From NCBI GenBank assembly GCA_026874595.1, contig CM049313.1, positions 30,192,008 through 30,256,007 of the forward strand: 64,000 bases of DNA, read 5' to 3'. The position numbers and the translations under genes are program-made. Below the pieces are notes generated by a model. The model had not been told where the DNA came from, did no database searches, and saw only the letters and a list, made by a program, of their open reading frames with translations. Source of the stretch: Sipunculus nudus. Its lineage: Eukaryota > Annelida > Sipuncula > Golfingiida > Sipunculidae. Positions 3,653-62,070 of the stretch are shown here, one piece after another; positions within the stretch are counted from its first letter, which is position 1, and the number at the start of each line of letters is the position of its first letter.

Positions 3653-3836
3653 AACAAGTGACCCATGGGTCATGACGCTCAGCTGACTGGGAAGGGATTC
3701 GCAAAAGGAAATTTTATCACCAGAATGGTAGTATATACCCATTCAACTGAAGCATCAAACAGATTAACCAACAGGCCAAGATTTAGTCTGTATTTATATA
3801 TCTCAAAAATTGAGAAAAATGTGTAAACTTTTAAAA
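3653..3836 (-). mobile_element. A-type element, 3' terminal fragment
   Basis: It begins with the conserved aacaag + TGACCCATGGGTCA palindrome + GCTCAGCTGACT module, which I interpret as the 3' terminus of the A superfamily. Homology is lost near the B-family end at 3837, so it is a fragment cut off by that element or by deletion. Confidence 0.6.
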
Positions 3837-4240
3837 CTAGAATACGGGTAACCGACAAGTGACTACATGTATCTGCCAAAATCGGATAGTGAGGCATGGA
3901 TTGAGTGGCAAGGGGAAATAGAGTAAGGTATGTTGCATATTAGCATGGATGTCTGCAGCCTAAATGTGTATGTAGGTTATGCCACCTACCACAAATCCAG
4001 AAATCTGTCCAAGTTATATACACCTGCAAAATTTTAGGCAGAAAAGTCAAACCACTACATGTATATGAGCGATTTTTGCCCATGGCAGACAAACAGAAGG
4101 ACTTGTGCAAAAATGGTGGCAGGTTGCGCCACCAATTTTGTGTCTGATTAAGAGCATTGTGAGATCTATACACATGCAAAATTTCAGGGGGATATGTCCA
4201 ACCAGTCCTGAGATATAAGCCTGAATGTCTGCAGCATTAA
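3837..4240 (-). mobile_element. B-family element, partial copy (B3)
   Basis: It starts with CTAGAATACGGGTA like B1 and B2. The first ~400 bp match them (gcatattagcatggatgtctgcagcc, aaaattttaggcagaaaagtcaaaccac). The hairpin arms are mutated compared with B1. The tandem core and the other terminus are absent. Confidence 0.7.
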
Positions 4241-4363
4241 CATAAATGTAGTACAGTATTACAGTAACTGTAATTCGTTATTATACCTTGCGCAGGGCCG
4301 CTGGCAGCAGTGAGGCTTGGTAGGCCATGGCCTCACCAATATTTTGGGCAAACAAGGATACAA

Positions 4364-6761
4364 AACAAGTGACCCATGGGTCATGAAGCTCAGCTGCCAA
4401 GCATGACCTGCGACATCATGGGCTGCAATTCACAACTTCTAGTAAAATTGTTGCAGAACCTATATGCCAATTTTGTTTAAACTTTCTACATTGCCATAAA
4501 TTCTTATCATATATGTCTGGTTAAAACATAGTGAATGATGGTCTGAGGCAAAATGTATGGTTGTTGAGCTATCAGGAACTAATCCCACAGCTTGCTCGAT
4601 ACCTGTCAGTCTCAAAAGGAATACCACACAGGCCACATTTAAGATCAAAATATAGCAAAAGATCAAGGAAATCCATGCAAGAATTATTGTGAAACGGGTG
4701 CTTCCATATTAATTTTTATTCAATACAAGCCAACTGCATGCACTGAGCTTTCATAAATGATGGTCATATTTATTAAGAAATCTTTGACCCAATGCAAGAT
4801 TACATTAATATACATCCCACTGCATTCACTTTATTAGTTCTTGAGATAATATGTTCTATAGGAATTTAAAGATGGCGTCCTAATGGCCATATTGGATTTC
4901 TGACAGGTCGGAAATTGAACAACAAACATCCTCTAAAAGGGACCAAACATCATAAAAAAATCACAGAAACTGTCCTGGCAAAAGGATTTCTAAAATGGCT
5001 ACCTGGCAGACATAATGGTTTTCTGGCAAGTCACACATCCTCCAATAAGACACTAAACTTGTAGCAATTGCTTCAAAGAATGTAACAGTTATGAATGTCC
5101 AAAACAATTCAAAAGGCATGATCAGGTTGGAGAGCTCTCATATCAGATTTATGAACATGCAAATGTAAAAAGTTCAAGTCCAATTTGTTTTAATTATCAG
5201 CTTGCTATTCAATGGGGTCAGCAGGGTAGGTAAACTGCAAAACCTAAAAGAAAAGAAATGCAGAAAGCATCACTAAGAGTCTTGTAATCAAATAAAGCCA
5301 TCCTAAATCCAGGTACAGACCCACATATTATCAGAACAAACACTTGCTGGTATATCTGATGATTTGTATAATAATATTCAGATATCTAGAAAACTAAGTT
5401 TATTGCTATGATTCCATGATATAAACTGCAAAATGTTCCCATCATTTTATAAATCAGTAGCTAAACTTAACACTTAACTCTCATAGTCTTAATGCCTGGC
5501 CAAAGCATTCCGGCAACAGTGTTTTTGTTATGCACTAATGATATATCCTTATCACTCCATGAGCTGATACAATAGGGAGTCATATTTCACAAGTGTCACT
5601 GACAATTATGGGCACATAGTGAGATGTACCAGTTGTGAGTGCCATATGGTTATATATACAAGAAAACAAGAAAAATAGAGATGGTCTACAAAATAAGTTA
5701 TTGTAAACATCCCTGACCTATGACCTTGGCCTTTTGCCCACATATCAACTGGATTCTTTCTAAATGATGGGTAACTACTAACCACTTACATCTGGCCGGG
5801 TGTAATTACTTAGCAACCAATGAGTGAATAACTTAGACCTGCAACCTTTAACCTCCTGACCAGCTGACCTCAAAATCAATTAGTTATTTCTTCATGCAAA
5901 AAGACCCATAAATATGAAGTTTGAATCAAATTCAGTGATACATAGATGTGGCATATGTGAAAGACTGAAGGTTTGGGTTGAACAGTTTCACTTGAAATAT
6001 GTTCACAAGCATTTAGAACAATATTGTGACCTTGACCTTTGACCTTTTGAACTCAACATCAATAGGCTTCTTCTCCTATTGGTAGGTAAGCCATATATGA
6101 CAGATGGAAAGTATAGATTGAAAAGTTTGCTGAAAATGACTCCATGCAAGAAGAGGGTGCTGTGAACTTGACCTTTGACCTCAAAATCAACAGGTCTTTT
6201 CCCCTGTAGGCAGAGAAGCGATATCAGTGCTGAAAGGTTTGGAATGAAAGGTCTAGCTTGAAATGTGTCCACAACCTTTTCAAAGAAGTGGATCCTGTGA
6301 CCCTAACCTTTGACCTTGTGACCTCAACATCTATAGGATTCTTCTCCCACTTAGTAGGTGAGCTATATGTAAAAGATGAAAGAATTGGGATGAAAGGTTT
6401 GGCTTAAAATGCATCCTGAGGCTTTTCAAAGAAGTTGGTTCTGTGACCTTGACCTTTGACCTTGTGACCTCAAAATAATTATGGTTCTTCCCCTGTTGGT
6501 AGGTGAGCTGTATGTGAAAGATGGAAGGTTTGGGATGAAAATTTTGGCAAAAAGAATTATTTCTGGGGGGTGCGAATTCGAGAATATAGGTCGCAGTGAC
6601 CTAATTTCAGGTTTGCAAGGAGATCTTTTTAGAACCTCTAAGACTGCATAGGGTTCTTGGCCCTAGCCCCTATGGTTACGATTTGTGCCCTGCTAACGGC
6701 CAGAGGGACAGACAAAGACCCATCGCTATAGCCCAGCATGACTGAAAGTCAGCTGAGCTAA
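4364..6761 (-). mobile_element. A-family minisatellite-cored element (A1)
   Basis: This is the first of three near full-length A copies (with 13044-16592 and 21965-24392). The left end is aacaag plus the palindrome TGACCCATGGGTCA and GCTCAG. The right end is ..AGTCAGCTGAGCTAA preceded by a stem-loop around GACTGAAAGTC. The inner arms GCTCAGCTGACT (family consensus) and AGTCAGCTGAGC are inverted repeats. The right half contains ~140-bp tandem units, each with TGACCTTTGACC-type motifs (6030, 6170, 6300, 6445). The open frames inside are short and only mirror the repeat unit, so there is no transposase. A1 is the most diverged of the three copies and lacks most of the GGAC-rich tract seen in A2 and A3. 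Confidence 0.8.
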
Positions 6762-7131: not shown

Positions 7132-9113
7132 CTAGAATACGGGTAGTCGACAAGCGACTACTTGTATCCGCCTAAATCAGAGTGGAACGGGTGAAGTGTT
7201 GCATATTAGCATGGATGTCTGCAGCCAAATTGTGTATGTAGGTTGCGCTACCTACCAAAAAATCCAGAAAGCCGTCCAAGTTGTATACATATGCAAAATT
7301 TAAGGCAGATAAGTCAAACCACATTGTATATGAGCGATTTTTGCCCTTGGCAGACAAACAAATGGATGCTGTGCAAAAAAGGGTTGCAGGTGGTGCCACC
7401 AGTTTAGCGTATGATAAAGAGCTTTGTGAGAACTATACACATGCAAAACTTTGGCCCAATCGGTCAAACGGTTCCCAAGATGAGCTTGGATATCTGCTGC
7501 ATAAACTAGAATGCAGGTGGCGCCACCTGTCATAAAATCAAGAGAGCTGTCGGGGATGTATAAACTTGCAAAATTTTAGGCAGATATGTCAAACCACTGC
7601 CGAGATATGAGTGATTTTATCCCATGGCAGACAAACAGACGGGAGCTGTGCAAACATGGCTGCAGGTGGTGCCACCAGTTTTGCGTATGATAAAGAGCTA
7701 TATGAGATTTATACACATGCAAAATTTCGGCCCAATCGGTCAAACGGTTCCCTAGATATGAGCTTGGATGTCTGCAGCGTAAACTTGATTGTAGGTGGCG
7801 CCACCTGTCATAAAATCAGAAAAGCTATCCAGGATGTATAAGCATGCCGAATTTCAGGTGAATTAGTCAAACCACTGCAGAGATATGAGTGATTTTAACC
7901 CAAGGCAGACGAACAGATGGACACTGTGCAAACATGGTTGCAGGTGGCACCACCATTTTTTGTGTATGTTATAAAGCTCTCCAAGGGCTACATTTGTGCA
8001 AAAAAATTTTCCTGATTTGTCAAACGGTTCCTGAGATATGAGCTTGGATGTCTGCAGCATAAACGTGAATGTAGGTGGCGCCACCTGTCATAAAATCAGA
8101 AAAGCTATCCAGGATGTATACGCATGCCAAATTTCAGGTGAATTAGTCAAGTCACTGCAGAGATATGAGTGATTTTAACCTAAGGCAGACAAACAGATGG
8201 ACACTGTGCAAACATGGTTGCAGGTGGCGCCACCATTTTTGGTGTATGTTATAAAGCTCTCCAAGGGCTACATTTGTGCAAAAGAATTTTCCTGATCGGT
8301 CAAACGGTTCCCGAGATATGAGCTTGGATGTCTGCAGTGTAAACGTGAATGTAGGTGGCGCCACCTGTCATAAAATCAGAAAAGCTATCCAGGATGTATA
8401 CGCATGCCAAATTTCAGGTGAATTAGTCAAGTCACTGCAGAGATATGAGTGATTTTAACCCAAGGCCGACGAACAGATGGACACTGTGCAAACATGGTTG
8501 CAGGTGGCGCCACCATTTTTGGTGTATGTTATAAAGCTCTCCAAGGGCTACATTTGTGCAAAAGAATTTTCCTGATCGGTCAAACGGTTCCCGAGATATG
8601 AGCTTGGATGTCTGCAGCGTAAACGTGAATGTAGGTGGCGCCACCTGTCATAAAATCAGAAAAGCTATCCAGGATGTTTACGCATGCTGAATTTAAGGTG
8701 AATTAGTCAAGTCACTGCAGAGATATGAGTGATTTTAACCCAAGGCAGACGAACAGATGGACACTGTGCAAACATGGTTGCAGGTGGCGCCACCATTTTT
8801 GGTGTATGTTATAAAGCTCTCCGAGGGCTACATTTGTGCAAAAAAATTTTCCTGATCGGTCAAACGGTTCCCGAGATATGTGGGTTTATGTGTGGAAACA
8901 GACGCACAAACGGACGCAGAGCGCAGAGGAAAGGTCAGAGGTCAAAACAAAATCGGGGCGCAGCAGTTCACATGTGACCCGAACATAATCCCGGGTTTCG
9001 GAAAAAATTCCGCCCAGCGGTTACAGAGGAGTTCTCCGGACACCTACGCGGCGGCGGCGGCGGCGGCCAGCTGAAAACATAGTATCCGCAAAACTCTGTT
9101 TTGACGGATACAA
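7132..9113 (-). mobile_element. B-family minisatellite-cored element, full length (B1)
   Basis: The left end CTAG + 7 nt + hairpin (GTAGTCG, loop ACAAG, CGACTAC at 7143-7161) reads on the minus strand as hairpin, short spacer, CTAG followed by T. That is the canonical Helitron-type 3' end. The right end, read on the minus strand, starts TTGTATCCG, and its inverted copy CGGATACAA lies just inside the left hairpin. A GCG-repeat tract (9048-9067) lies about 45 bp from the right end. The core holds ~280-bp tandem units. No coding capacity is visible; open frames are repeat shadows. Confidence 0.8.
7470..8900. repeat. ~280-bp tandem repeat core of B1
   Basis: Units recur at 7794, 8073, 8353 and 8633 (spacing 279-280 bp), with more diverged units on the left. 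Each unit has two copies of the 12-bp palindrome GGTGGCGCCACC or a one-base variant, and a conserved gagatatgagcttggatgtc segment. The two central units are almost identical, which suggests recent amplification. Confidence 0.9.
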
Positions 9114-9199
9114 TAAGCTTTATTAATGAACAAACTAACCCCTGACAGTGTGCAGAGTGGTGGAAATAACCCCTGACCAGAATCTGGTTCAGCCACCAA

Positions 9200-13043: not shown

Positions 13044-16000
13044 AACAAGTGACCCATGGGTCATGACGCTCAGCTGCCAAGCATGACCTGTGACATCATG
13101 GACTGAGATTCACAACTTCCAGTCAAATTTTGAAGAACCAATTTGCCAATTAGTTGAAAATTTTCTATGACAACAGAAATATATATCACCTATGTCTGGT
13201 TAAAACACAGTGAATAGATGGTCTGAGGAAAATGCATGATTGTTAAGCTTTCAGGGACTATTCCAACAGCTTGCTTGAAACCTGTCAGTCTCAAAAGGAA
13301 CACCACAATGGGCAAATATAAGATCAAAATATATAGCAAAAATCAAGGAAATACATGCAAGAATAATTGAGAAACAGGTGCTTCTGTATGAATTTTTATT
13401 CAATACAAGCCAACTGTAGTGCACTTTTATAAATGATGGTAATATTTATTCAGAAATATTTGACCCAATCCTTTACAAGATTACATAAATATACATCTAA
13501 CTGCATTCACTTTAACTGTTCTTGAGATAATATGATCAAAAGGAACTAGACATTTCTTGGCACCGCTGGTGCCATAGTATCGCCAGACAAATGAGGTTTT
13601 GTGGTATATTTTGAGGTTTTGACTTATAATGCTCACAGTGCTGTCAAGTGGCCCTTTTTAAGATATTCATGATTTTATGTTTTACCAAATATGGGAATAT
13701 TCAAGGTCAAGGTCACTCTCATAGTCACGGTCATGACCCCAAATCAATAAACTGCATTCCAAAATATCCAACATTTGAAAAAAAAATTTAATTAAAAAAA
13801 ATAATTTAAATTAAATTAAATTTCAAAAATTTAATTTAAAATTAAATATACCTCATTCCATAAACCATATCTATATACATGCATAACATAAAAGAAATCT
13901 GTCAATTACTGTTTGACTTATAATGCTCACAGTATATACTGTCAAGTGACAATGATGGGGTATTCAAAGGCGCAAAAAAACAAAAAAAGGACAACAGGTG
14001 GCACCACCTATCTTCTGCAAAAGACAAAACTATCCAAGATCTTCCGTCAACTTGATTTTTGGACCAATCCATGCATCCCTTTTTAAGATATTCATGATTT
14101 TATGTGATTTTCACCATATATGGTAATATTCAAGGTCAAAGCCACTCTCAAAGGAAAGGTCATGACCCCAATTTTAATATACATCATCCCATAACCCATA
14201 CCTATGTACATGCATAATATTAAAGAAATCTGTCAATCAGTTTTTGACTACTGTCAAATGGCAATGATGGGGGTATTAAACGGCACAAAAACAAGAAAAG
14301 GATACTAGGTGGCACCACGAGTTTCCGGTTCATGACATCACTATCCAAGATCTTTGTCCAACTTGATTTTTGGATAAATCCATGAAAGATTTCTTGAGAT
14401 ATTTAAGAATTTGTGTGATTTTCCCCAAAAATGGATCTATTCAAGGTCAAGGTCACTCTCCTAGTTGAGGTCATGACCCCATTTTAAATAGGCTTCGTCC
14501 TCTTACCTATAACTATTAATGTGTCAAGTTTGAAAAAGATCCTTGAAATATTTTTTGAGTTATTGTGTCCAAAAGAAATCTCTGCGGCGGCGGGGGCGGC
14601 GGCGGCGGCACAACCGTGCCTAAACCATAGTATCTCCAGACTATGTCTGGCGATACAATTAAAAGATGGTTGCCTGGTGGCCATATTGGACTTCTTACAA
14701 GTCTGAAATCAGACAACAAACATTCTCTAAATCGGACCAAACATTAAAGAAAAATTACTGAAACTGCACTGAAGAAAGAATTTCTAAGGTGGCTAACTGG
14801 CAGACATAATGGATTTCTGACAAGTATGACATTTGATATCCCACATTCTCCAATAAGAGACCAAATTTGAGGCAAATTATCCAGTAATGAATGCCCAAAA
14901 TAATTCAAAAGGCATGTCCAGGCCCTCATATCAGATATATAGATATGCAATTGTAAAAAGTGTAAGTCCAATATTTTTTATTATCACTCTGCTTTTCAAT
15001 GGAGTCAGCAGGGTAGGTAAACTGCCAAACCTGAAAGAAAAGAAATGCAGAAAGCATGACTAAGAGTCTTGAAATAAAACAAAAAGCCATCCTAAATCAA
15101 GGTACACATCCACATATTATGAGAACAAACACTTGCTTTTATATGTGGTGATATATATTAAAATATTCAGATATCTAGGAAACTAAGTTTATTGCTAGGA
15201 TTCCATAAAATAAACTGCAAAATGTTCCCATCATCTTATAAATCAGTAGCTAAACCTTAATACTATACTCTCATAGTCTTAATGCCTGGCTGAAGCATTC
15301 TGACAACAGTGTTTTTGTTATGAAGTAACTAGCTACTTATCACTCAGCCTTATCGCTTAATAGGCTGATACAAAAGGGAGTCATATGTCACCAGTGTCAC
15401 TCACAATTACAGCCACACAGGGAGATGTACCAGCTGGAGTGGGATGGTTATATATACAAGAAAAATAGAGATGGTCTATAAAATAAGTAATTGTGAACAT
15501 CCCTGACCTATGACCTTGGCCTTTTGCCCATATATCAACTGGATTCTTTCTAAATGATGGGTAACTACTAACCACTTAAATCTGGTGTAATTACTTGGCA
15601 ACCAATGGGTGAATAACTTTGACCTGCAACCTTTAACCTGCTGACCAGCTGACCCCAAAATCAATAAGTTATTTATTCAAGCAAAAAGACCCATAAATAT
15701 GAAGTTTGAGTCAAACTGAGTGATGCATAGATGTGGCATATGTGAAAGACTGAAGGTTTGGGTTGAACAGTTACACTTGAAATATGCTCACAAGCATTTA
15801 GAACAATTAAATATTGTGACCTTGACCTTTGACTTTTTGACCTCAACATCAATAGGTTTCTTCCCTTATTAGTAGGTAAGCGATATATGACAGATGGAAG
15901 GTACAGATTGAAAAGTTTGCCTGAAAATGACTCCACGCAGGAAGTGGGTGCTGTGAACTTGACCTTTGACCTCAAAATCAACAGGTCTTTTCCCCTGTTG

Positions 16001-16592
16001 GCAGAGAAGCGATATCAGTGCTGGAAGGTTTGGAATGAAAAGTCTAGCTAGAAATGTGTCCACAACCTTTTCAAAGAAGTGGATCCTGTGACCCTGACCT
16101 TTGACCTTGTGACCTCAAAATCTATAGGATTCTTCTCCAACTTAGTAGGTGAGCTATATGTGAAAGATCAAAGAATTGGGATGAAAGGGTTGGCTTAGAA
16201 TGCATCCACAGGCTTTTCAAAGAAGAGGCTCCTGTGACCTTGACCTTTGACCTTTTGACCTAAAAAGAATTACGGTTCTTCCCCTGTTGGTAGGTGAGCT
16301 GTATGTGAAAGATGGAAGGATTGGGATGAAAATTTTGTCTCAAAGAGTTATTTCTGGGGGGTGCAAACACACCCTATAACATCGAGAATATAGGTCGCAG
16401 TGACCTAATTTCAGGTTTGCAAGGAGATCTTTTTATAACCTCTAAGACTGCATAGGGTTCATGGCCCTAGCCCCTACAGTTATGATTTGTGCCCTGCTAA
16501 CGGACGGACAGCCGGCCGGACGGACAGACGGAAGGACGACGGACAAAGACCCATCGCTATAGCCCAGCATGACTGAAAGTCAGCTGAGCTAA
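13044..16592 (-). mobile_element. A-family element (A2), interrupted by C1
   Basis: It is collinear with A3 (21965-24392) at very high similarity from the aacaag + TGACCCATGGGTCA end to the AGTCAGCTGAGCTAA end, except for 1.1 kb at 13546-14658, which is a C-family insertion. The right part has the ~140-bp tandem module with TGACCTTTGACCT motifs, then the conserved gaatataggtcgcagtgacctaatttcagg segment and a GGAC/CCGG-rich tract at 16500-16550. It codes for nothing recognisable. It sits directly after a C/A homopolymer (13010-13043). Confidence 0.85.
13546..14658 (-). mobile_element. C-family element nested in A2 (C1)
   Basis: The ends CTAGACATTT + GGCACC/GGTGCC hairpin on the left and ..TGTCTGGCGATACAA on the right match C2 and C3. 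The GCG-type tract is at 14584-14609. A3 gives the uninterrupted site: aaggaa|ttaaaag at 22464-22473 becomes aaggaa-[C1]-ttaaaag. The element therefore lies between A and T without clear target duplication. The long DR1-containing tandem core of C2 and C3 is missing, leaving a shortened version with tcaaggtcaaggtcactctc modules. Confidence 0.85.
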
Positions 16593-19061: not shown

Positions 19062-20735
19062 ACAAGGCTTCCAGGCCTAATGTGAACCTGTGCATTGGGA
19101 AATACACCAGGTATAATGCTTCAATGCTGGACCATTACTTTTCATGTATATGAACAATGCAAGTACTAAACATTTTGAATATGAAACAATTACACAAACA
19201 TCACTGCTGAAATTCTGGCATAGGTGCACACAACACAAAAAATGATTGTAGCTGGCACCACCCTTCTTGTATACAACAAAGCTATCAGAGATATATACAT
19301 ATGCCCAATTTCAGACTGATATATCAAACCCCTCCTGTGAAATAAGGAGGAAAACACTCTATGCGAAAAATATTTTAGGTGGCACCACCTGTCTTGTATA
19401 CGACAAAGCTATTCGATATATATAAATATGCCCAATTTCAGGCTGATATATCAAATTCCTCTGTAGAAATAAGCAGGCACATATACTGTGCAAAGCTCAT
19501 TGCAGGTGGCAAAACCTGTCTTGTGAACGAGAAAGCCATCAAAGACACATCGACTGGTAAAAATATCAGGCCAATACATCAAACTTACCTTGAGTCTGAT
19601 GCATGGGGCTGACCAGGCTTAGGTGAAAAAGGCAGTTGCCCCAAAAGAACTGTGACAAATTGCTGGGTCAGGCTACTGCACTGAGTGAACTCATGACCTG
19701 CACCTGGCTAGACTGAGTGAACTTTTGACCTGTACGTGGCTGCACTGAGTGAACTCTTGACCTGTTGCAAAATCTGACACAGTTGGCAGTCTGCCAAAGC
19801 TATAAATAGATCCAGGCTGAACTTTGGTGCCAAATCTGATGCAGTGGGCAGTCTGCCAACGATAGAATGCAGCTACTGCATCGAGTGAACTCCTGACCTA
19901 TACCTGGCTACACTGAGTGAACTCTTGACCTGTTGCCTAATCTGATACAGTTGGCAGTCTGTCAAAGCTATAAATAGATCCAGACTGACCTTTGGCCTGT
20001 TGCCAAATCTGAAATAGTAGCCACACCATTGCATAAGCTCACAGATTGGCTCCGCATGCAGCCCTGAGGGGCATGACACACATGAGGTGATCACACGATA
20101 CTCATTAGGTGTTCACATGTCACCCATGAGGTGATCACATGCCTTGTGTTTGGCTGCACTGATTGAACTCTTGACCTATATCTGGCTGCACTGAATGAAC
20201 TCTTGATCTGTTGCCAAATCTGAAACAGTTGGCAGTTTCTCAACCTATTTAAAGATACAGACACAATCTTGGCCTGTTGGTAAATCTGTTTACATATACT
20301 GAAAGACTTTGGATAAAATGCTTTTTTTCAAGCTGACATATTCATTAACTTTTGTCAAAATATCTAGAATAATAAAAGATGCAGTCCTTTCATTGTTAAA
20401 GGTTCAATAATTCTGCAAAAAATCATTCAAGTAAACTTGAACAAAGGCCAACTTAGAATAATTTTTGTGGAATGTTACAGAAGTTATAATTGAAACAATA
20501 ATTTTGTAGAAGAACACTATTGCAGTCCTCAGTTTGAAATAGACATAATAATGGCCATAGACCAACGTATGCTTTTCACGACTCAACCAAAAATCAACAA
20601 ACTCAATCTATTCTGATATGATTGAAAGAACCATGTCCTGGGATAATTCTTTGAAAAACTAAATGATTCAACTTGACAGTTCATCATAAACATTTTAACC
20701 TAAAAGAGGCTAAAATTATGAGGTTTTTGCCCATA
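19062..20735 (-). mobile_element. D-family element, partial inverted copy
   Basis: Read on the minus strand this stretch is collinear with 60436-62068 over ~1.6 kb. It includes the ctggtggtgcca units with aaattgggcatatgtatat, the repeated gagtgaactcttgacctgttgcc / ctataaatagatcc units (19680-20260), the low-copy stretch 20340-20700, and the end GAACCTGTG at 19084. Homology stops abruptly at 20735, where an aacaagggacc terminus begins, so a later insertion cut it off. It lacks coding content. Confidence 0.85.
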
Positions 20736-21732
20736 AACAAGGGACCAATGGGTCACATCGCTCAGCTGGATTTTGGAAAATATTAGTAACTGCAAAATAT
20801 TTTTATTTCTTTTGGTTTTTCATGTATATTATCATTAGAAAAGCTATGAGAAAATGGCCCTGCTAAAATGAAACTCTGTAAATTATAGAATAATGGACAT
20901 GAGCTAAACCATTTAGTGATGCACCAAGGGAACAAATAGGCCTATGGTAAGTGTTATATAAAAGTAACATTTCATAAACAAATAATGTGTGAAGGTAATT
21001 AAGTTTTCAAAAGTTAAATATATGGCCATATGAGTTAAATATTAATCCCACAAAGTTTGTCCAATATTCCTAATTTTAATACAAAGTTAACAGTATTATT
21101 CACACCTAGGCCCCGCCAACTTTAAGAGATATAAATGAAATGCTACAAAGTATTTATATCTTCTTAAATCTCGTCAGTTAGCACTTACATTAGATCCTAA
21201 TATTTTATCACATTTAAATATTAGGATTCAATTCCTAAATTTTATTTCTTAAAAAAAGTCAAATTTGTCCAAGTCTCATCAAAAAGAATTAGTTAACATT
21301 AAAATATAAGATTTATCTTGTTTATTAGTCCTGTGTATTGAAGGGGTGGGTGGGGGGAGGGGTCTCCGTTGTTACTGAGCGTTGCTGAAAAAAATGTTAA
21401 TTTTAAGATTCATCTAGTTCATAGTACAGGTCTGTCAACAGAAAGGGGTGGGGGGGGGGGGGAGAGAAAAAGGCTCCCTGTGGTATGGTATTAACTGCAG
21501 ACAGCCTGATCAAGCTTAACTCAGTGGAGCCTGGGGACCATAAAGAGCTGCACTGAATGACCTACAGTGACCAAAGTGGACTGCTTGACAATGTAAGGGA
21601 ATACAACAAGAACCTAAAAAAAAATTCAATAACTAGCCTAATTTTGCAGCTTTTATTTTCAAATTTCAGTTTTTAACAGATTAAATCCTTATGTGCACAT
21701 GCTGTGAAAATTATATCCACAGTACTTACAGG
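20735..21732 (-). mobile_element. A/G-type terminus and associated sequence
   Basis: aacaagggaccaatgggtcacatcgctcagctgg at 20736 is an imperfect A-superfamily 3' terminus placed exactly where D homology ends. The following 1 kb is AT-rich with G tracts. Its last part (21640-21732) matches 25310-25410 and 45190-45300 (tgctgtgaaaa..aacagtgcttacaggaaaa), a G-family segment. Confidence 0.5.
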
Positions 21733-25245: not shown

Positions 25246-25269
25246 TACTACTGGGTGGGCTAGATGTAA

Positions 25270-27289: not shown

Positions 27290-27295
27290 AAATTG

Positions 27296-46907: not shown

Positions 46908-47024
46908 TTGTTATTTTTTTCTTCTGCAGTCTGGTTATACACTGGTTTAAGGGTACGAGATCACCTATTTGGGTACGAGATAACTTATGTACGAGATGAC
47001 TTGGGTACGAGGTGACCAGAAGCC
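46183..47024. mobile_element. TIR element nested in E2 with 9-bp target duplication
   Basis: Ends are ~65-bp imperfect inverted repeats built from GTACCCAAGTCATCTCGTAC-type motifs (46197-46275 and 46945-47017). TGCAAAGAA occurs at 46174-46182 and 47025-47033, and uninterrupted E units contain tgcaaagaatcatgg, so it duplicates the target. A 9-bp duplication suits Mutator-like elements. No transposase is seen. Confidence 0.7.
46862..46902. repeat. (TA)n microsatellite
   Basis: About 40 bp of pure TA inside the TIR element. Confidence 0.95.
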
Positions 47025-47990
47025 TGCAAAGAATTATGGTAATCATGAATGCATGAGTTCTTCCGAAACTGGAGGATTTGTATCAAATTTTTAATAATAT
47101 TGAGGGGTACTTACAAGCCCTATATCTGGAAGGATATGGTTAACAGTAACCTAATATAAGGTTTCCAAGGAAATTTTTCATTGACTTCCCTGGATGTCAA
47201 ATTAGAACATTCTAGATTGAATGGTTATGATTTGTACCCTGTTAAAGTATGACACATATTTTAAGGTCTAAAATAAAGAGAAACAAATGCGTAAAAATTT
47301 GAAAAAAAAATCCAAGTGGTGCCACCAGTCTGCAGGAACTGATGAAACAGTCCATGATCAATATCCATGCAAAGAATCATGGTGTTCAATGCATTAGCTG
47401 TTCAGATACTGGAGCTTTTGAAACAAATTTTCAATTATTCTTGGGGGAACTTCCCGAGCCCCATAGCTCACGGGATATGGGTAAGAGAGACCTAATTTCA
47501 TGTTTCCATGGAGATTTTTCATGGACCTCCCAGGATGTGAAGTTCGAAGATTCTAGGTCCAATGGTTACGATTTGTGCCCTGTTAACGGACAACCACATT
47601 TGAAGGTCTCAAAAATTGAGAAAAAATGCGTAAAAATTGGATAAAATCCAGTGGGCACCACCAGTCTGCAGGAACTGATGAATCATGGTGATCAATGCAT
47701 TAGTTGTTAAGATGCTGGAGCTTTTGTATCAAATTTTTAATTATTCAGGGGGGAGGGGGGTACTTCTGAGTAACATAGCTCAGAGGATATGGGTAACAGA
47801 GACGAAATTTCTGATTTCAAAGGAGATTTTTTATGGACCTCCCTGGATGTGAAGTTAAGAAGATTCCAGGTCCAGCAGTTACAATTCGTTGCCTGGTTTC
47901 ACACAGACAGAGGAACGGACATACAAACAGATGCTGGACAAAGAGTGATCGTTATGGCTTAGATGACTTTTAGTCAGCCGAGCTAAATAC

Positions 47991-50473: not shown

Positions 50474-53020
50474 CTAGACATTTCTTGGCACCGCAGGTGC
50501 CAGAGTATCCCCAGACATAGTAGCCCCCCCCCCCCCCTTTAAGAACAGACCCCCAATTTTGGCAGCATATACTGACACTTGGCATATTTATTGTTTCTTC
50601 CATCTAACAATCCACAATCTTGTTGAAGATGTTGGTCCTGTGACCTTGATCTTTTTAAAGATGTGTCCTGTGACCTTGACCTTTGACCTCATGACCCCAA
50701 AATCAATTTGGGTCTTGCTTTTCCAATGGGACATATGCAAGTCAAGTTTGAAATCTATACATCAATAAAAGCAGGAATTATCATCCAGAAACTATTTTTT
50801 TTTACAGGTGGCTCCTGTGACCTTCACCTTTGACCTTGTGACCTCACAATTGATAGTATTCTTCCTCTCTTGGCAGGAGAACTATATGTGCAAGATGAAA
50901 GATCTGAGATGAAATGTTTGGCTGAAAATACATCCACATCTTTTTAACGATGTGTCCTGTGACCTTGACCTTTGACCTCATGACCCCAAAATCAATTTGG
51001 GTCTTGCTTTTCCAATGGGACATATACAAGTCAAGTTTGAAATCCATACATCAATAAAAGCAGGAATTATCATCCAGAAACTAATTTTTGGACAGATGGC
51101 TCCAGTGACCTTCACCTTTGACCTTGTGACCTCAAAATTGATCGGGGTCTTCCACTCTTGGCAGGTGAACTATATGTGCAAAATGAAAGATCTCAGATGA
51201 ATTTTTGGCTGAAATTGCATCAACAACCTTTTTAAAGATGTATCCTGTGACCTTGACCTTTGACCCCATGACCCCAAAATCAATTTTGGTCTTGCTTTTC
51301 CAATGGGACATATGCAAGTCAAGTTTGAAAACCACACATCAATAAAAGCAGGAATTATCATCAAGAAAATAATTTTTGGACAGATGGCTCCTGTGACCTT
51401 CACCTTTGACCTTGTGACCTCAAAATTGATAGGGTTCTTCCTCTCTTGGCAGGTGAACTATATGTGCAAGATGAAAGATCTGAGATGAAATGTTTGGCTG
51501 AAAATGCATCCACATCTTTTTAAAGATGTGTCCTGTGACCTTGACCTTTGACCTCATGCCCCCAAAATCAATTTTGGTCTTGCTTTTCCAATGGGACATA
51601 TACAAGTCAAGTTTGAAATCCATACATCAATAAAAGCAGGAATTATCATCCAGAAACTAATTTTTGGACAGATGGCTCCTGTGACCTTCACCTTTGACCT
51701 TGTGACCTCAAAATTGATAGGGGTCTTCCACTCTTGGCAGGTGAATGGTATGTGCAAGATGAAAGATCTCAGATGATTTTTTTGGCTGAAATTGCATCCA
51801 CAACCTTTTTAAAGATGTGTCCTGTGACCTTGACCTTTGACCTCATGACCCCAAAATCAATTCAGGTCTTGCTTTTCCAATGGGTCAAATACAAGTCAAG
51901 TTTGAAATCCATACATCAATAAAAGCAGGATTATCATCCAGAAACTAATTTTTGGACAGATGGCTCCTGTGACCTTCACCTTTGACCTTGTGACCTCACA
52001 ATTGATAGGGGTCTTCCACTCTTGGCAGGTGAACTATATGTGCAAGATGAAAGATCTCGGATGATTTTTTTGGCTGAAATTGCATCCACAACCTTTTTAA
52101 AGAGGTTTCCTGTGACCTTGACCTTTGACCTCATGACCCCAACATCAATTCAGGTCTTGCTTTTCCAATGGGTCAAATACAAGTCAAGTTTGAAATCCAT
52201 ACATCAATAAAAGAAGGAATTATCATCCAGAAACTAATTTTTGGACAGATAGCTCCTGTGGCCTTGACCTTTGACATTGTGACCCCAAAATTTCTATGGA
52301 TCATCCAATATTGGCAAGTGAGCTATATATTCAAGATGGAAGACCTGGGATGAAAGTTTGGCTTAAAATGCATCCACAGTATATTTTAAAATGCCAGTCC
52401 AGTGACCTTGACCTTTGACCTCATGACCCTCGAACCTATAGGGTTCTTACTTTAGTGGTGGGCCATACATAAGTCATGTTTGAAATCTATATGGCTATCA
52501 ACACTGGAGATATCATAAGAGGAGTGTGATTTTCACCATATATGGCAATATTCAAGGTCAAGGCCACTAACATAGGAAAGGTCATGACCCCAATTTAAAT
52601 AACCATCATCCCATAACCCATAGCTATGTATATGCATAATATAAAAGAAATCTGTCCATTAGTTTTTGACTTATAATGCTCACAGTACTGTAAGGTGGCA
52701 ATTTTGGGAGTATTAAACGGCATGAAAACAAGTAAAGAATAATAGGTGGCGCCACCAGTTTCTGGAACATGACAACCCTATCCATGATCTTCCATCAACT
52801 TGATTTTAGGATAAACCTATGCAAGATTTCTTGAGATATTAAAGAATTTGTGTGATTTTCCCCAAAATTGGACCTATTCAAGGTCAAGGACACTCTCCTA
52901 GTAAAGGTCATGACCTCATTTTATATAGGCGTCGTCCTCTCACCCATATCTATACATATACCAAGTTTGGTAAAGTTCCGTGAAATATTTTTTGGGTTAT
53001 CGCGCCAACAAGATTTATAT

Positions 53021-53051
<31 letters not shown>

Positions 53052-53098
53052 GACCGGTATGAAAACATAGTATCCCCCGACTTTGTCTGGGGATACAA
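50474..53098 (-). mobile_element. C-family element (C3)
   Basis: Same ends as C2: CTAGACATTTCTT + GGCACC-GCA-GGTGCC on the left, GTATCCCC..TGTCTGGGGATACAA at 53070-53098 on the right, and the longest GCG tract at 53021-53051. The core has about seven ~288-bp units (50689 to 52417), then a non-repeated part shared with C1 and C2 (cattttaaata..ggcgtcgtcc, ggtggcgccaccagtttctgg at 52746). It is flanked by A on the left and T on the right. No coding content. Confidence 0.88.
53021..53051 (+). repeat. (GCG)n microsatellite of C3
   Basis: About ten GCG units. Orthologous tracts in B1, C1 and C2 are 19-26 bp and interrupted, so this one has expanded or is youngest. Confidence 0.95.
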
Positions 53099-54495: not shown

Positions 54496-54499
54496 TCAC

Positions 54500-57315
54500 G
54501 AGCACTTTTCAAGTCGTCATGTGGTTATTTACGAGTCGCTAAATGATTTTGCGAGTGTCAAGTGTTCATTTGCGAGTCGCTTAATGATTTTGCAAGTGGT
54601 CAAGTGGTCATTTGCGAGTCGCTAAATGATTTAAGCGAGTCGTCATGTGGTTATTTATGAGTCGCTAAATGATTTTGCGAGTCGTCAAGTTGTCATTTGC
54701 GAGTCGCTTAATGATTTTAGCGGGTCGTCAAATGTTTCTTTATGAGTTGCATAATGATTTTGCGAGTTGTCAAGGGGTCATTTGCGAGTCGCTAAATGAT
54801 TTAGCAAGTGGTCATTTGCGAGTCGCTAAATGATTTTCTGGCAAGTGGTCATGTGGTAATTTATGAGTCACTAAATGATTTAACAAGTCGTCAAGTGTTC
54901 ATTTGTGAGTTGCTAAATGATTATGCAAGTGGTCAAGTGGACATTTACGAGTCCCTAAATGATATTCTAAAGTCGTCATGTGGTTATTAATGAGTCGCTA
55001 AATGACTTTGCGAGTCGTCAAGTATTCATTTACGAGTCGCTTAATGAATTTGCAATTTGTCAAGTGGTCATTTTCGAGTCGCTAAATGATTTTAGCGAGT
55101 CGTCATGTGGTTATTTATGAGTCGCTAAATGATTTTGCGAGTCGTCAAGTTGTCATTTGCGAGTCGCTAAATGATTTCAGCGGGTCGTCAAGTGTTTCTT
55201 TATGAGTTGCATAATGATTTTGCGAGTTGTCAAGGGGTCATTTGCGAGTCGCTAAATGATTTTGCAAGTGGTCATTTGCGAGTCGCTAAATGATTTTCTG
55301 GCAAGTGGTCATGTGGTAATTTATGAGTCACTAAATGATTTTGCAAGTCGTCAAGTGTTCATTTGCGAGTTGCTAAATGATTATGCAAGTGGTCAAGTGT
55401 CATTTACTAGTCCCTAAATGATTTTCTAAAGAGTCGTCATGTGGTTATTAATGAGTCGCTAAATGATTTTGCGAGTCGTCAAGTATTCATTTACGAGTCG
55501 CATAATGATTTTGCAAGTGGTCAAGTGGTCATTTGCGAGTCACTAAATGAGTTTAGCGAGTCGTCATGTGGTTATTTACGAGTCGCTAGATGATTTTGCG
55601 AGTCATCAATGTGTCATTTGCGAGTCGCTAAATGATTTTAGTGGGTCGTCATGTGTTTATTTATGAGTTGCTAAATGATTTTGCGAGTTGTCAAGGGGTC
55701 ATTTGCGAGTCGCTAAATGATTTTGCAAGTGGTCAAGTGGTCATTTGCGAGTCGCTAAATGATTTTCTGGCGAGTGGTCATGTGGTTATTTATGAGTCGC
55801 TAAAGGATTTAGCAAGTCGTCAAGTGTTCATTTGCGAGTCGCTTAATGATTTAAGCGGGTCGTCAAGTGTTACTTTATTAGTTGCATAATGATTTTGCGA
55901 GTTGTCAAGGGGTCATTTGCGAGTCGCTAAATGATTTTGCAAGTGGTCATTTGCGAGTCGCTAAATGATTTTCTGGCAAGTGGTCATGTGGTAATTTATG
56001 AGTCACTAAATGATTTTGCAAGTCGTCAAGTGTTCATTTGCGAGTTGCTTAATGATTATGCAAGTGGTCAAGTGGTCATTTGCGAGTCCCTAAATGATTT
56101 TCTAAAGAGTCGTCATGTGGTTCTTAATGAGTCGCTAAATGATTTTGCGAGCCGTCAAGTATTCATTTACGAGTCGCATAATGATTTTGCAAGTGGTCAA
56201 GTGGTCATTTGCGAGTCACAATATGATTTTAGCGAGTCGTCATGTGTTTATTTACGAGTCGCTAGATGATTTTGCGAGTCATCAATGTGTCATTTGCGAG
56301 TCGCTAAATGATTTTAGCGGGTCGTAATGTGTTTATTTATGAGTTGCTAAATGATTTTGCGAGTTATCAAGGGGTCATTTGCGAGTCGCTAAATGATTAT
56401 GCAAGTGATTTTTTACGAGCCCCTAAATGATTTTCTAAAGAGTCGTCATGTGGTTATTAATGAGTCGCTAAATGATTTTGCGAGTCGTCAAGTATTCATT
56501 TACGAGTAGCTTAATGAATTTGCAAGTGGTCAAGTGGTCATTTGCGAGTCGCTAAATGATTTTCTGGCAAGTGGTCATGTGGTTATTTATGAGTCACTAA
56601 ATGATTTTGCAAGTCATCAAGTGTTCATTTGCGAGTCGCTAAATGATTATGCAAGTGGTCAAGTGGTCATTTACGAGTCCCTAAATGATTTTCTAAAGAG
56701 TCGTCTTGTGGTTATTAATGAGTCGCTAAATGATTTTGCTAGTCGTCAAGTATTCATTTACGAGTCGCTTAATGATTTTGCAAGTGGTCAAGTGGTCATT
56801 TGCGAGTCACTAAATGATTTTAGCGATACGTCATGTGGTTATTTACGAGTCGCTAGATGATTTTGCGAATCGTCAAGTGTTCCTTTGCAAGTCGCTAAAT
56901 GATTTTGCAAGTGGTCATTTGCGAGTTGCTAAATGGTTTAAGCGAGTCGTCAAATGAATATTTACGAGTCGCTAAATGATTTTGGCGAGTCGTCATTTGG
57001 TTATTTATGAGTCGCTAAATGATTTTGCGAGTCGTCAAATGGTCATTTGCGAGTCGCTAAATGATTTTGCAAGTGGTCAAGTGGTCACTTGCGAGTCGCT
57101 AAATGATTTTCTGGTGAGTGGTCATTTGGTTATTTATGAATCGCTGAATGGTTTTGCGAGTCGTCAAGTGGTCATTTCCGAGTCGCTAAATGATTTTGCG
57201 TGTCGTTAAGTGAATATTTGCGAGTCGTTAAAGTATTTTAGCGAGTCGTCATGTGGTTATCTACGAGTCGCTAAATGGTTTTGCGAGTCATGAAGTGGTC
57301 ATTTGCAAGTTGCTA
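54500..57315 (+). repeat. 42-bp minisatellite (about 65 units) with ~461-bp higher-order period
   Basis: The unit is built from two ~21-bp halves, catttgcgagtcgctaaatg and attttgcgagtcgtcaagtggt, both containing gcgagtcg. Diagnostic variants (gggtcgtc..gagttgc..gcgagttgtcaagggg) recur at ~54720, 55182, 55642, 55857 and 56318. Spacings are mostly 460-462 bp, i.e. 11 units. Because 42 is divisible by 3 the array is open in-frame for long stretches (up to 112 codons, 14-residue period). This is a by-product; I see no start context, conserved frame or stop placement suggesting a protein. Confidence 0.93.
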
Positions 57316-57337
57316 TGACATCTCTGTAAATAGTTTT

Positions 57338-58508
57338 TTAGCGAACCTGTGAGCTTATACGATGGTGTGGCGTCGTCCGTCGTCTGTACGTTAACCCATA
57401 CTATCTTGTAAACGGCAAGAGTTAGCATCACGAAATTTCATGCATAAAAAAAAATAGTCATCTAAAAATTCTATCGGATTTTGCTTATTTTTTTGGCTAA
57501 CTGCATTTTTTTAGATTTTATAGGGAAAAAGCTAAAAAAAAAGCTTTTAATCTCAGAAAAGGCTGGAGCTATCATCACCAAATTTTATGCCAATATTGGT
57601 CACATGAGTCATATCTGAAATTGAGGTATTGGTGGCGCCACCTGCATCGGCCTTTTTTGTACGGGGTGATCAGTGCCCGTATCATACTGACGGCTACTAA
57701 ACATTTCTTCTCTGAAACCATATGGCCAAATTGTTTTATATGGCACAGAAATGATCCTAGGGTAGTGCTTTCTGAAGTTTGTCCAAATGGTCTCAGTTCA
57801 GTGACTTTTGGCTGAGTTATGGGAAGCTGAATTTAGTCATATGTCATAACATCCCATTTTAGCTCAGTGGCTACAAAGATCTTCTTCTCAAAAACCACTT
57901 GGCCAAATTCTTAAATCTCACACATTATTATCCTGAGATGTTGATAATTCAAGTTTGTTCAAATGGTTTTTGTTCAGCGATTTTTGGCTGAGTTATTTTC
58001 CCATATGAGTTATAAACCTGTAAAACGTGTTTTTACTGATGCCACTGAGGCCAATTTGTTTAATATTTTACAAGAATAATCCTCGAATAATTCTTATAAT
58101 AATTGTCTTTATGGTTCCAAAGAATGAATTTTGGCTGAATTATAAAGATTGAATTGAGTCATTTTTCCATATATGTTAGCTGTGTGAAGCACATACATAC
58201 AGCCTAGCACCTGTTTATCAGCATCCGTTACATCATGCCACTAGACATTTAGATTTCAGGTTATCTATGGTTAATATTGAAAAGAATGTTTTTAAAAGCT
58301 TTTTAAAAATGTAGATTTATGACTTTAGATATTCCTCATGCGAGGCAATCTTTACAATCAGAGGTATACAGCTCTCTGCTTGTGGGTATAAAAAGACGGC
58401 TGTACATGGATTATAAATAATTGGTATCCATACTCAGTTAAAGAATTTGCCATCAGTTAGATGCATCTGTATTATAATTTTGCATTCAATATGCATCTGT
58501 AGTAATTT
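57338..58508 (+). mobile_element. D-family element, 5' part (D1)
   Basis: The end TTAGCGAACCTGTGAGC is followed by a GTCC/GTCG-rich stretch and cgtctgtacgttaaccc. One ggtggcgccacctgcat unit lies at 57629. Several ~190-bp units follow (ggccaaattgtt, tttggctgagtta). It is interrupted or joined at 58509 by a second D end. Confidence 0.75.
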
Positions 58509-61500
58509 TTAGCGAACCTGTGATCTAATGCGATGGTGTGGCGGCGTCCGTCGTCTGTACGTTAACCCATACTATTTCGAAAACGACTAGAGCTAGCATC
58601 ATGAAATTTAATGCAAAAATTAGCCATCTTAAAAACACTGCATTTTCTTAGATTTTATAGAGAAAAAGCTAAAAAAAAAAATTAAAAATCTTCTCCTCCG
58701 AAACGGTCAAGCCAAATTGTTCAATATTTCGCAGAAATAATCTTTTATACCATTTCTCTCAAGTTTGTTTGAATGGTTCAAGTTCGGTGAATTTTGGTCG
58801 AGTTACAGGAAGTTGAACTTAGTCATCTGTCCAAAAAAGCATACTAAAATGACAGTCTCAGAAACGCCCAGGGCTATTATCACAAAATTTTATACCAGTG
58901 TTGGTCACATGAGTCATATATGAAATTCAGGTATTGGTGGCGCCACCTGCATTGACCTTTATTTGTACGCTATTGCCCCATAATTTCTCAGGAATGGCCG
59001 GAGCTACCATCCCCAGATTTTATGCAATAATCGGTCACATATCAAATGTTGTGGGATTCAGCTTATTTTTATGCCCCCGCCACAAAGTGGCCGGGGCATA
59101 TAGTTTTACCCATGTCCGTCATTCCGTCATTCCGAAATCAAACAGATGTACGGACTTTTTTTCGCAATGCCTGCAGATATTGGCCTGATTTTTGGTGTGT
59201 GGGCAGATAATGACCAGTTACAGATCGAGTGCGCGTTTCGTTGCAGTTGACCTACTTTTGACCGTTTTACGCCTCCTAAACTTAGAAAATTTCATGAAAA
59301 ATAGAAATTTTCATGACAAAAACACATGTACGGACTTTTTTTCGCAATGCCTGCAGATATTAGCCTGATTTTTGGTGTGTAGGCAGAGAATGACCAGTTA
59401 CAGATCGAGGTAGCGTTTCGTGGCAGTTGACCTACTTTTGACCGTTTTACCGCTCCTAAACTTAGAAAATTTCATGAAAAATAGAATTTTTATGACAAAT
59501 ACACATGTACGGATTTTTATTCGCAATGCCTGCAGATATTGGCCTGATTTTTGGTGTGTAGGCAGATAATAACCAGTTACAGATCGAGGTAGCGTTTCGT
59601 GGCAGTTGACCTACTTTTGACCGTTTAACGGCTCCTGAACATAGAATATTTCATGAAAAATATAAACTTTCATGACAAATACACATGTACAGACTTTTTT
59701 CGCAATGCCTTTAGATATTGGCCTGATTTTTGGTGTGTGGGCAGATAATGACCAGTTACAGATCAAGTTCGCGTTTCTTCCCAGTTGACCTACTTTTGAC
59801 CGTTTTACGGCTCCTATTTTTGACCATATGACAGATCCTGAACATAGAAAATTTCATGAAAGACAGAAATTTTTATGTAAAATGCACATGTATGGACTTT
59901 TTTCACAATGCCTGCAGATAATGGCCTGATTTTTGGTGTGTTGTTTGATAATGACCCGTTACAAATCGAGTTTGCATTTTGCCCTTGTTGACCTAATTTG
60001 ACCATACGACACCTCCTGAACTTAAAAAAATTTACAAAATTTAACAAATGTTTCTAATTTGCCCCAGGCGGGGGCATTCGTGTCGTTCCGACACATCTAG
60101 TTTACTATCTGCATTTACTTAGATTTTATAGGGGAAAAGCTGAAAAACCTTTAAAAATCTTCTTCTTGTAAACGGTCCAGCCAAATTGTTCAATATTTTA
60201 CAGAAATGATCCCAGAAGCAAGCCCTCTCAAGTTTGTTAAAATGGTTTGCACTTCATGAATTTTTGTGGAGTTACACGAATTTGAACTTAGTCAAATGGC
60301 CAAGTAAGCATACTGACATAGTAATCTCAGAAATGAAAGAATATAGCATGACCAAGTATTGTGCAAATGTTGGTCACATGACTCATATTTGAAGTGGCAT
60401 ATTTTGTGGTGCCACCTACATTGACCTGTTTTTTATGGGCAAAAACCTCATAATTTTAGCCTCTTTCAGCTTAAAATGTTTATGATGAAACTGTCAAGTT
60501 GAATCGTTCAATTTTTCAAAACAATTATCCTAGGACATGGTTCTTTCAATCATATCAGAAAAGCTTTTGTTGGTCTTATGGCCTTATTATGTCTTATTCA
60601 AACTGAGAACTGCAAAACTGTTCTTCTACAAAATTATTGTTTCAATTATAACTTCTGTAACATTGCACAACAATTATTCTTAGGTGGCCTTTGTTAAAGT
60701 TAACTTGAATGATTTTGGCAGAATTATTGGACCTTTAACAAAGAAAGGACTGCATCTTTTATTATTCTAGATATTTTGATAAAAAGTTTATGAATATGTC
60801 AGCTTGAAAAAAAGCATTTTAGCAAAAGTCTTTCAGTATGTGTAAACAGATTTACCAACAGGCCAAGATTGTGTCTGTATCTTAAAATATGTTGAGAAAC
60901 TACCAACTGTTTCAGATTTGGCAACAGATCAAGGATTCATTCACTGCATCCAGATATAGGTCAAGAGTTCAATCAGTGCAGCCAAGCACAAGGCATGTGA
61001 TCACCTCATGGGTGACATGTGAACACCTCATGGGCACCATGTGATCACCTAATGGGTGTCATTCCCCTCTGGGCAGGGCCCCTGCATGAGCTTATTCAAT
61101 GGTGTGGCTACCATTTCAGATTTGACAACAGGCTAGAGGTCAGTCTCGATCTATTTATAGCTTTGGCAGACTGCCAACTGTATCAGATTAGGCAACAGGT
61201 CAAGAGTTCACTCAGTGCAGCCAGGTATGGGTCAGGAGTTCACTCGATGCAGTAGCTGTATTCTATTTATAGCTTTGGCAGACTGCCCACTGCATCAGAT
61301 TTGGCACCAAAGTTCAGCCTGGATCTATTTATAGCTTTGGCAGACTGCCAACTGTGTCAGATTATGCAACAGGTCAAGAATTCACTTAGTGCAGCCAGGT
61401 ACAGGTCAAAAGTTCACTCAGTCTAGCCAGGTGCAGGTCATGAGTTCACTCAGTGCAGTAGCCTGAGCCAGCAAATTTGTCACAGTTCACTCGGGGCAAC

Positions 61501-62070
61501 TGCCTTTCTCACCTAAGCCTGGTTAGCCCCATGCATCAGACTCAAGGTAAGTTTGATGTATTGGCCTGATATTTTGACCTGTCTATGTGTCTTTGATGGC
61601 TTTCTCGTTCACAAGACAGGCGTCGCCACCTGCGATGACTTTTGCACAGTGTATGTACCTGCTTATTTCTACAGAGGAATTTGATATATCAGCTTGAAAT
61701 TGGGCATATATATACATATCGAAAAAACTTTGTCATATCAAAAACTGGTGGTGCCACCTCCAATAATTTTGGCACAGTGTTTCCCTGCTTATTTTCAGGA
61801 GGGGTTTGATATATCAGTCTGAAATTGGGCATATGTATATATCTATGATAGCTTTGTTGTATACAAGACTGGTGGTGCCAGCTACAGTCATTTTTGTGTT
61901 GTGTGCACCCATGCCTGAATTTCAGCAGTGATATTTGTGTAATTGTTTCTTATTCAAAATGTTCAGTTTTTGCATTGTTCATATACATGAGAAGTAATGG
62001 TCCAGCGCTGAAGCATTATACTTGGTGTATTTCCCAATGCACAGGTTCGCATTAGGCCTGTAGGCCTTTT
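58509..62070 (+). mobile_element. D-family element, near full length (D2), with nested F
   Basis: It starts with TTAGCGAACCTGTGATC. Inside it are ggtggcgcc/ggtggtgcc units (58936, 60413, 61750), the low-copy part 60540-60840, and the gagtgaactcttgacct / ctataaatagatc units (60920-61460). It ends with CACAGGTTCGC (62040-62050), inverted relative to the start, then AGGCCT-GT-AGGCCT (62054-62067), which can pair, then a T run. That matches the 3' layout of families B, C and F. The part from 60436 onward is duplicated in inverted orientation at 19062-20735. No coding content. Confidence 0.75.
59071..60101 (+). mobile_element. F-family element nested in D2
   Basis: 5' ATGCCCCCGCCAC-AAA-GTGGCCGGGGCAT hairpin (59071-59099, one mismatch), then a GTCCGTC/ATTCC simple tract, five ~181-bp units (starting near 59145, 59326, 59505, 59686, 59888), and the 3' module GGCGGGGGCAT + TTC + GTGTCG-TTC-CGACAC + ATCTAG followed by T. 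Comparison with D3 (27560-27600, inverted) and D1 (57480-57520) shows insertion inside a T run of the D sequence. No coding content. Confidence 0.88.

Follow-up and report, generated by a model that had tools for sequence, protein, structure and literature searches.

Repeat families that lay out their ends alike and carry different terminal sequences raise the question of what moves them. Such families occupy a 64,000-nucleotide stretch of the Sipunculus nudus genome (G000:C8:30192008-30256007; the window), where the original prediction had described five of them (A, B, C, D and F) as unrelated, non-autonomous Helitron2/Helentron-like elements that one machinery encoded elsewhere in the genome might mobilise. 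The class has held: the anatomy of the ends, empty sites lacking a clear target-site duplication (TSD), TT targets and one coding element, termed d, with the same ends as family A give good support for non-autonomous Helentron/Helitron2-like elements. The families are very probably of HINE type, that is, protein-less derivatives of Helentrons, the latter being rolling-circle transposons of the Helitron superfamily. Sequence comparison points to a shared machinery for the A-type terminal class (A, A-prime, An and G) only.

Repeat elements of the window

Comparing the window with itself yielded several copies each of families A, B, C and D. The boundaries of A, C and F were placed by homology breaks or empty sites without use of the arms (F by its own empty site). 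The 5′ ends of B1 and D were set with the previously proposed arms as a guide, and copies within one family are non-independent. In rolling-circle orientation, A, B, C, G and D2 lie on the minus strand and D1 and F on the plus strand. No match to Rep, PIF1 or another helicase was found in the 104 window frames scanned (of 161 frames of at least 66 amino acids [aa], the remainder lying mostly in arrays), and Rfam and tRNA scans of the window gave no matches. The elements, with d and its relative e described below, are as follows.

4366–6760, minus: A1, non-autonomous, with A-type ends (5′ TAGCTCAGCTGACT hairpin; 3′ palindrome and CTTG followed by TT) and monomers akin to the 146-bp unit; placed by homology breaks among three copies, both ends matching d
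13046–16591, minus: A3, second A copy, split by C3 (homology)
21968–24393, minus: A2, third A copy (homology; empty site 44000–44159)
20738–27285, minus: An, an A-type insertion within D2 that contains A2 and repeated A-type 5′ ends; empty site 60356–60508
3655–3675, minus: second A-type 3′ end, taken in the original prediction as the start of A
44616–44694, minus: A-prime 5′ end; no 3′ end of A-prime itself was found
31938–34675, minus: G1, ~336-bp tandem array (32420–34510) whose monomer shows homology to the 5′ regions of d and e
47013–47987, minus: G2, A-type 5′ end and G monomers, collinear with d:14–584 (72%)
7132–9113, minus: B1, 5′ TTGTATCCG hairpin, (GCC)n, 280-bp array, 3′ hairpin and CTAG followed by TT
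29056–30133, minus: B2, ~90% identical to B1 across the best stretch, 5′ end diverged
3837–4363, minus: Bs, short B copy abutting the A1 3′ end
39460–41952, minus: C1, 5′ TTGTATCCCCAGACA hairpin, (GCC)n, 289-bp array, 3′ arm, hairpin and CTAG followed by TT
50474–53098, minus: C2 (self-comparison, arms)
13546–14657, minus: C3, inserted in A3; empty sites 22388–22546 and 4795–4943
58511–62068, plus: D1, 5′ AGCGAACCTGTG, 3′ CACAGGTTCGC and palindrome, end at a CCTT/TTTT junction; 5′ hairpin unsupported
19064–28116, minus: D2, split by An; end at CCTT followed by G, or CCTTG followed by TTT
57340–58304, plus: D3, 5′ part only, upstream of D1
59071–60100, plus: F, 5′ ATGCCCCCGCC hairpin, 179-bp array, 3′ arm, hairpin and CTAG followed by TT; nested in D1; empty site on the reverse complement of 27503–27637

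Two boundaries proposed earlier were replaced. Arm 3677 had been paired with 6747 as the limits of A, but three copies put the end of A1 at 4366; position 3655 belongs to another A-type 3′ end, and Bs sits between the two. D had been drawn as a single element (57341–62070) and is a composite of D3 (start 57340) and D1, with F nested in the latter. G is a further family beyond those first listed (32.4–34.5k and 47.0–48.0k), with an A-type 5′ end in copy G2; the A-type 3′ end at 31938 (one mismatch), ~0.5 kb from the array, is assigned to G1 by position only. Approximately 205 bp upstream of the D 5′ arm are common to D1 and D2 (58305–58510 and 28117–28320; 89%) and missing from D3, and the 3′ flanks differ; a composite or a 5′-extended transposition is possible.

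Terminal anatomy of the families

Written in the rolling-circle direction, with outer square brackets enclosing the element, the ends read TTTT[AGCTCAGCTGACT...CAGCTGAGC-TGACCCATGGGTCACTTG]TT in A, A[TTGTATCC...GGATAC...hairpin...CTAG]TT in B and C, TTTT[AGCGAACCTGTG...CACAGGTTCGC-palindrome-CCTT(G)] in D (signature AGCGAACC...) and TTTTT[ATGCCCCCGCC...GGCGGGGGCAT-hairpin-CTAG]TT in F. B and C have their 5′ ends and (GCC)n in common. All five arm pairs quoted previously are present as exact reverse complements. Among 20,000 random end pairs, a fraction of only 0.0001 to 0.0048 reached the inverted-arm score of each of 10 elements from the five families. By hand count the arms are asymmetric, lying 0–2 nt from the 5′ end and 18–31 nt from the 3′ end.

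The 5′ hairpin ascribed to all five families was supported by folding in A, B, C and F: for their 36-nt ends, the fraction of 4,000 random stretches that folded as well was 0.0022 or less. A stricter ungapped hairpin score supported C (0.007) and F (0.004) and not B (0.09), A (0.26), D1 (0.95) or D2 (0.61); this score is too strict for bulged stems. At the 3′ end, the predicted order of arm copy and then hairpin was supported by folding in B, C, F and D1 (0.007 to 0.035), with weak energy in A (~0.13) and D2 (0.26); the A hairpin is a perfect 14-nt palindrome despite its weak energy. A scan for a hairpin followed by CT[AT]G and TT returned 19 sites, an approximately five-fold excess over 20 first-order resampled sequences, which averaged 3.45 and reached 9 at most. 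When stems of at least 6 were required, 10 sites remained against 0.9 (maximum 2). By reading, 12 of the 19 are family ends and seven are not. The G/C-rich simple repeat near the 5′ end, by eye, is plain in A, B and C and short or weak in D and F.

Relative to C1 and C2, C3 carries the same base change in both its 5′ and 3′ arms, while the inner arm of the 5′ hairpin is unchanged. This single paired event fits the arm-to-arm pairing proposed for Helitron2 (PMC3627910). Helitron2-like anatomy (5′ arm 0–2 nt from the end, 3′ arm upstream of a hairpin, two hairpins) was found in A, B, C and F, and in D without the 5′ hairpin. Canonical Helitron ends (5′ TC, 3′ CTRR, A^T target) do not describe the set, as no family starts with TC and CTAG occurs only in B, C and F. 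Proto-Helentron-like ends (5′ TT, 3′ CTAG, A^T target) are seen in B1, C1, C2 and C3 and in the C3 empty site.

Insertion at T-rich targets

When the joined flanks of 13 elements were compared with the window, uninterrupted paralogous (empty) sites were recovered for four: A2, An, C3 and F. Identity between filled and empty copies was 89% for A2, 91% for An, 96% and 83% for C3, and 75% for F, whose empty copy carries a deletion. The targets were TTTT^TT (A2), a T-run (An and F) and AA^TT (C3). Duplications of 2–11 bp, named in the original prediction as evidence that would count against it, were not clear in any of the four pairs: none has a duplication beyond one or two ambiguous Ts, and A2 has no extra base at all. 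The same pattern is seen in a further C insertion, in locus z, which holds two Ts more than the uninterrupted paralogue in locus b1. A Bs chimera match was not counted as an empty site, since it rests on the neighboring A-type end.

Target preference was also evident from 3′ junctions. The 18-letter C 3′ end occurs in 2459 exact copies genome-wide, with TT next in 2374 (96.5%), while the reversed-pattern control gave 0. TT likewise follows 10 of 10 A-type 3′ ends in the window (allowing at most 5 of 21 mismatches). Elsewhere in the genome, 9 of 11 arm rows at L001–L008 are preceded by a T-run, L001 and L002 being one place read twice.

These data bear on an alternative in which the families are miniature inverted-repeat transposable elements (MITEs) with short inverted repeats, moved by a DDE cut-and-paste transposase. 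In favor of this, the copies are non-coding and have an inverted arm at either end; the initial description of the bivalve element Pearl was likewise as a MITE (PMC7492417). However, the arms are asymmetric, no clear TSD of fixed length, as left by cut-and-paste MITEs, appears in the four filled/empty pairs, and a Rep/PIF1 element bears A-type ends. The MITE explanation, already largely refuted for the A type, is very improbable overall.

A coding Helentron-type element with A-type ends

Across the genome, which spans 1,426,538,692 bases in 153 contigs, at least 143 matches to Helitron_like_N were found, and 10 of 143 rows lie in open frames exceeding 1,600 aa. Eight Rep loci of 20 kb and 30 of 3.4–3.6 kb (L009–L038) were examined. 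One, element d (C17:35619654-35639653), has a 2342-aa frame flanked on each side by an A-type end; these ends lie ~14.2 kb apart, near d:16 (5′ TTTTTAAGCTCAGCTGACTGTAAGTCATCTGAGCTATAG) and d:14175 (3′ GTCAGCTGAGCATCATGACCCATGGGTCACTTG followed by TTTTT). The frame matches Helitron_like_N (2.3e-27), PIF1 (2.7e-23), Exo_endo_phos (1.9e-4), DUF6570 and Herpes_teg_N. Its relative e (2420 aa; 89–93% identical to d over the two main coding stretches) matches Exo_endo_phos_2 (2.6e-8) at 34.2 bits, over the cut-off of 27.4, in keeping with the endonuclease that Helentrons carry C-terminal to Rep/helicase. The last 35 nt of A1 are identical to d at 33 of 35 positions, as compared to 19 at the next best place and 19 in the reversed control; this likeness is confined to the final ~35 nt, and the sequences diverge further in. 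Seven 5′ ends of the window (A1, A2, A3, A-prime, 26686, 27295 and G2) and six 3′ ends align to d. Identity between the G satellite and the 5′ regions of d and e is ~72–82%, so that G looks like a shortened d-type element. The A-type ends of d, set around a Rep/PIF1 frame, indicate that A, A-prime and G are Helentron passengers of HINE type.

Other Rep lineages coexist with d and e. Element g, at 68% to d, carries an A-type 3′ end (27 of 35 positions) and no endonuclease match in the part scanned, whose frame stops shortly past the helicase domain. At locus z lies a relative of d (87%) that is broken. Another lineage is formed by the alpha loci (a1, a2, b1 and b2), in which b1 has PIF1, OTU and endonuclease matches and b1 and b2 are alike across nearly all 20 kb. 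Three Rep loci 99.8–99.9% identical to one another lie within ~62 kb (L023–L025; G000:C7:48.53-48.59 Mb), a local amplification, and three others on three contigs are 99% identical (L019, L020 and L028). Family copies also occur at Rep loci: B inside d and in e, C in z, F ~3 kb past the g 3′ end, and F at the Rep-bearing L036. The last was rejected as a helper end, being an F insertion pointing away from Rep; L009–L038 held no other family match. Other arm candidates flanking Rep in the 20-kb loci (9–13 bp) match no window family and were taken, by judgement, as chance.

Proposed mechanism and the number of machineries

Taken together, it is highly probable that the families move as protein-less Helentron derivatives. 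In the rolling-circle direction, each element opens with a short arm next to a T-run or TT; in A, B, C and F this arm folds into a 5′ hairpin. A simple repeat leads into a tandem array, and the element finishes with an inverted copy of the arm and a palindrome 0–9 nt before its end, after which comes the T-rich target. The terminal letters are CTAG in B, C and F, CTTG in A, and CCTT or CCTTG in D. A Helentron Rep would nick the 5′ end, after which one strand would be peeled off and copied; the 3′ palindrome may halt copying, and pairing of both arms may mark the end. A, G and A-prime would be mobilised by the d/e lineage or a close relative, and B/C, D and F by the same or other Helentron lineages.

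Several observations weigh against this interpretation. Folding does not support a 5′ hairpin at the three D ends (0.86, 0.17 and 0.38 versus random stretches). Filled sites hold extra Ts relative to empty ones (one in F, two in An and two in C3), and element-borne Ts, TT duplication and slippage in a T-run are then indistinguishable. The Exo_endo_phos match of d falls below the Pfam cut-off (21.7 versus 24.5 bits), and the ends of d are defined by its own arms and similarity to A, with ~15 bases of 5′ flank covered. Both ends were recovered in only one of the eight 20-kb loci (d), with the 3′ end alone in a second (g), and neither the 20-kb loci nor L009–L038 contained a Rep element with B/C, D or F ends.

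One alternative applies to B and C, whose ends (5′ TT, 3′ CTAG, A^T target) could mean that they are moved not by a Helentron but by either a proto-Helentron or a canonical Helitron. These ends match the Phytophthora proto-Helentron, which has 5′ TT and 3′ CTAG and inserts between A and T (PMC4067079), the hairpin lies 7–9 nt ahead of CTAG, and oyster elements combining Helitron and Helentron features have been described (PMC7992393). However, B and C possess a 5′ hairpin and arms, which canonical Helitrons lack, and TT after CTAG in 96.5% of copies exceeds what an A^T target needs. One degenerate canonical-type Helitron (L010 + L055, 7.4 kb), tried as a B/C partner, has no matching ends. Movement of B and C by such an element is unlikely, though its probability is far from negligible.

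A second alternative, the single machinery for all families that was first proposed, has in its favor the common plan, the common CT[AT]G-TT-like 3′ ends and the presence of the same monomers across terminal classes. Against it, several Helentron lineages coexist (d/e/z, g and alpha), terminal sequences differ by class, and coding elements with family ends were found for the A type only (both ends in d, the 3′ end in g). The proposal of one machinery encoded elsewhere therefore survives for the A-type class, while the missing partner for B/C, D and F in the loci examined leaves one machine for all unproven. That more than one machinery is involved is at least as likely, and a single machinery for every family appears improbable.

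Satellite monomers shared between terminal classes

Tandem minisatellite cores, as predicted, are present in all five families: 146 bp in ~2 copies in A (in A2 and A3; not reported in A1), 280 bp in B, 288–289 bp in C, 124–127 bp in D and 179 bp in F. The A and C monomers are homologous in the same orientation (z 61), and so are the B and D monomers (z 40; 60 shuffles each). Ends and satellites are thus mixed two by two across the families. To call them unrelated was too strong, given the common B/C ends and common A/C and B/D monomers, whereas the single plan of arms and tandem cores holds for all five. One tentative explanation, somewhat less probable than not, is that Helentrons are assembled from independent cassettes, the terminal modules that supply the transposition signals being reassorted with the satellite modules. 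On this view, TTGTATCC...CTAG ends bear a 146-bp-type (C) or box-type (B) monomer, AGC-type ends likewise bear one or the other (A and D), and a given satellite may be spread by several transposon machineries at once.

The box in question, the 12-bp GGTGGYRCCACC, has 26 occurrences, found in the B, D and G monomers and in those of C (3′ part), and the sequence surrounding it is weakly similar (positions 7389–8783, 13997, 19378, 27698, 29477–29904, 32758, 33428, 41610, 46121, 52745, 57631, 58936 and 61747). In two B monomers (7506 and 29467) the box is followed by CATTCTAG and then TTT, like the 3′ end of the element itself. Satellite units may derive from element 3′ ends.

Other features of the window

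A frame with a DUF659 match and a sub-threshold BED zinc finger lies on the minus strand in two pieces (38078–39160 and 42257–42568) with C1 between them, perhaps a hAT-like gene or relic; a PDB search with the DUF659 frame gave no match. A 42-bp minisatellite of ~67 copies (54512–57315) immediately precedes D3; no terminal plan was sought there beyond reading the flanks.

Relation to known systems

The set is well supported and ordinary in kind, its plan being already published for Cg_HINE of the Pacific oyster (PMC7492417), which likewise has a 5′ subterminal inverted repeat (subTIR) with a complementary inverted repeat, a microsatellite, a satellite-like array, a 3′ subTIR and a palindrome, with T-rich/TT targets, no TSD and several families with unrelated ends. 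Two points go past that oyster picture. Each Cg_HINE repeat cluster is tied to one flank pair, whereas here related monomers lie between different ends (A/C and B/D); and none of 10 autonomous oyster Helentrons was relatable to the HINEs (PMC7492417), whereas the present genome has a coding element with A-type ends. HINE/DINE-1 elements and their Helentrons (PMC4067079) resemble the present set in subTIRs, a 3′ stem-loop, a TT target and a Rep/helicase/endonuclease partner with common ends, but the A–d 3′ likeness is limited to the final ~35 nt, unlike theirs. Helitron2 (PMC3627910) shares the asymmetric arms, a 5′ hairpin using the 5′ arm, and a 3′ arm 20–30 bp from the end before a hairpin; Helitron2 is described as lacking an endonuclease (PMC4067079), whereas e, and weakly d, have an endonuclease match and so depart from it.

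Oyster Helitrons (PMC7992393) combine a CTAG 3′ end with subTIRs, as do B, C and F, and were named possible intermediates; they differ in starting with 5′ TC, in having a microsatellite in only one, and in that no autonomous element was found in that study. Non-canonical Helitrons of Fusarium oxysporum (PMC5148889) also have asymmetric inverted repeats, and hairpins at both ends in some subgroups, but other end sequences and another target. The A 3′ end gave no matches in one viral collection, and a literature search with sequence strings returned no papers.

Satellite-bearing HINEs are abundant in oyster genomes, and a helper is reported in neither PMC7492417 nor PMC7992393. No mollusc HINE tied to a coding Helentron appeared in the literature searched, including passages of PMC11136912, PMC10294476 and PMC8268682. 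The genome that houses these passengers also encodes a Helentron-type element with matching ends, which makes the question of the helper testable, and the window offers a case in which satellite units and transposition ends appear mixed between families.

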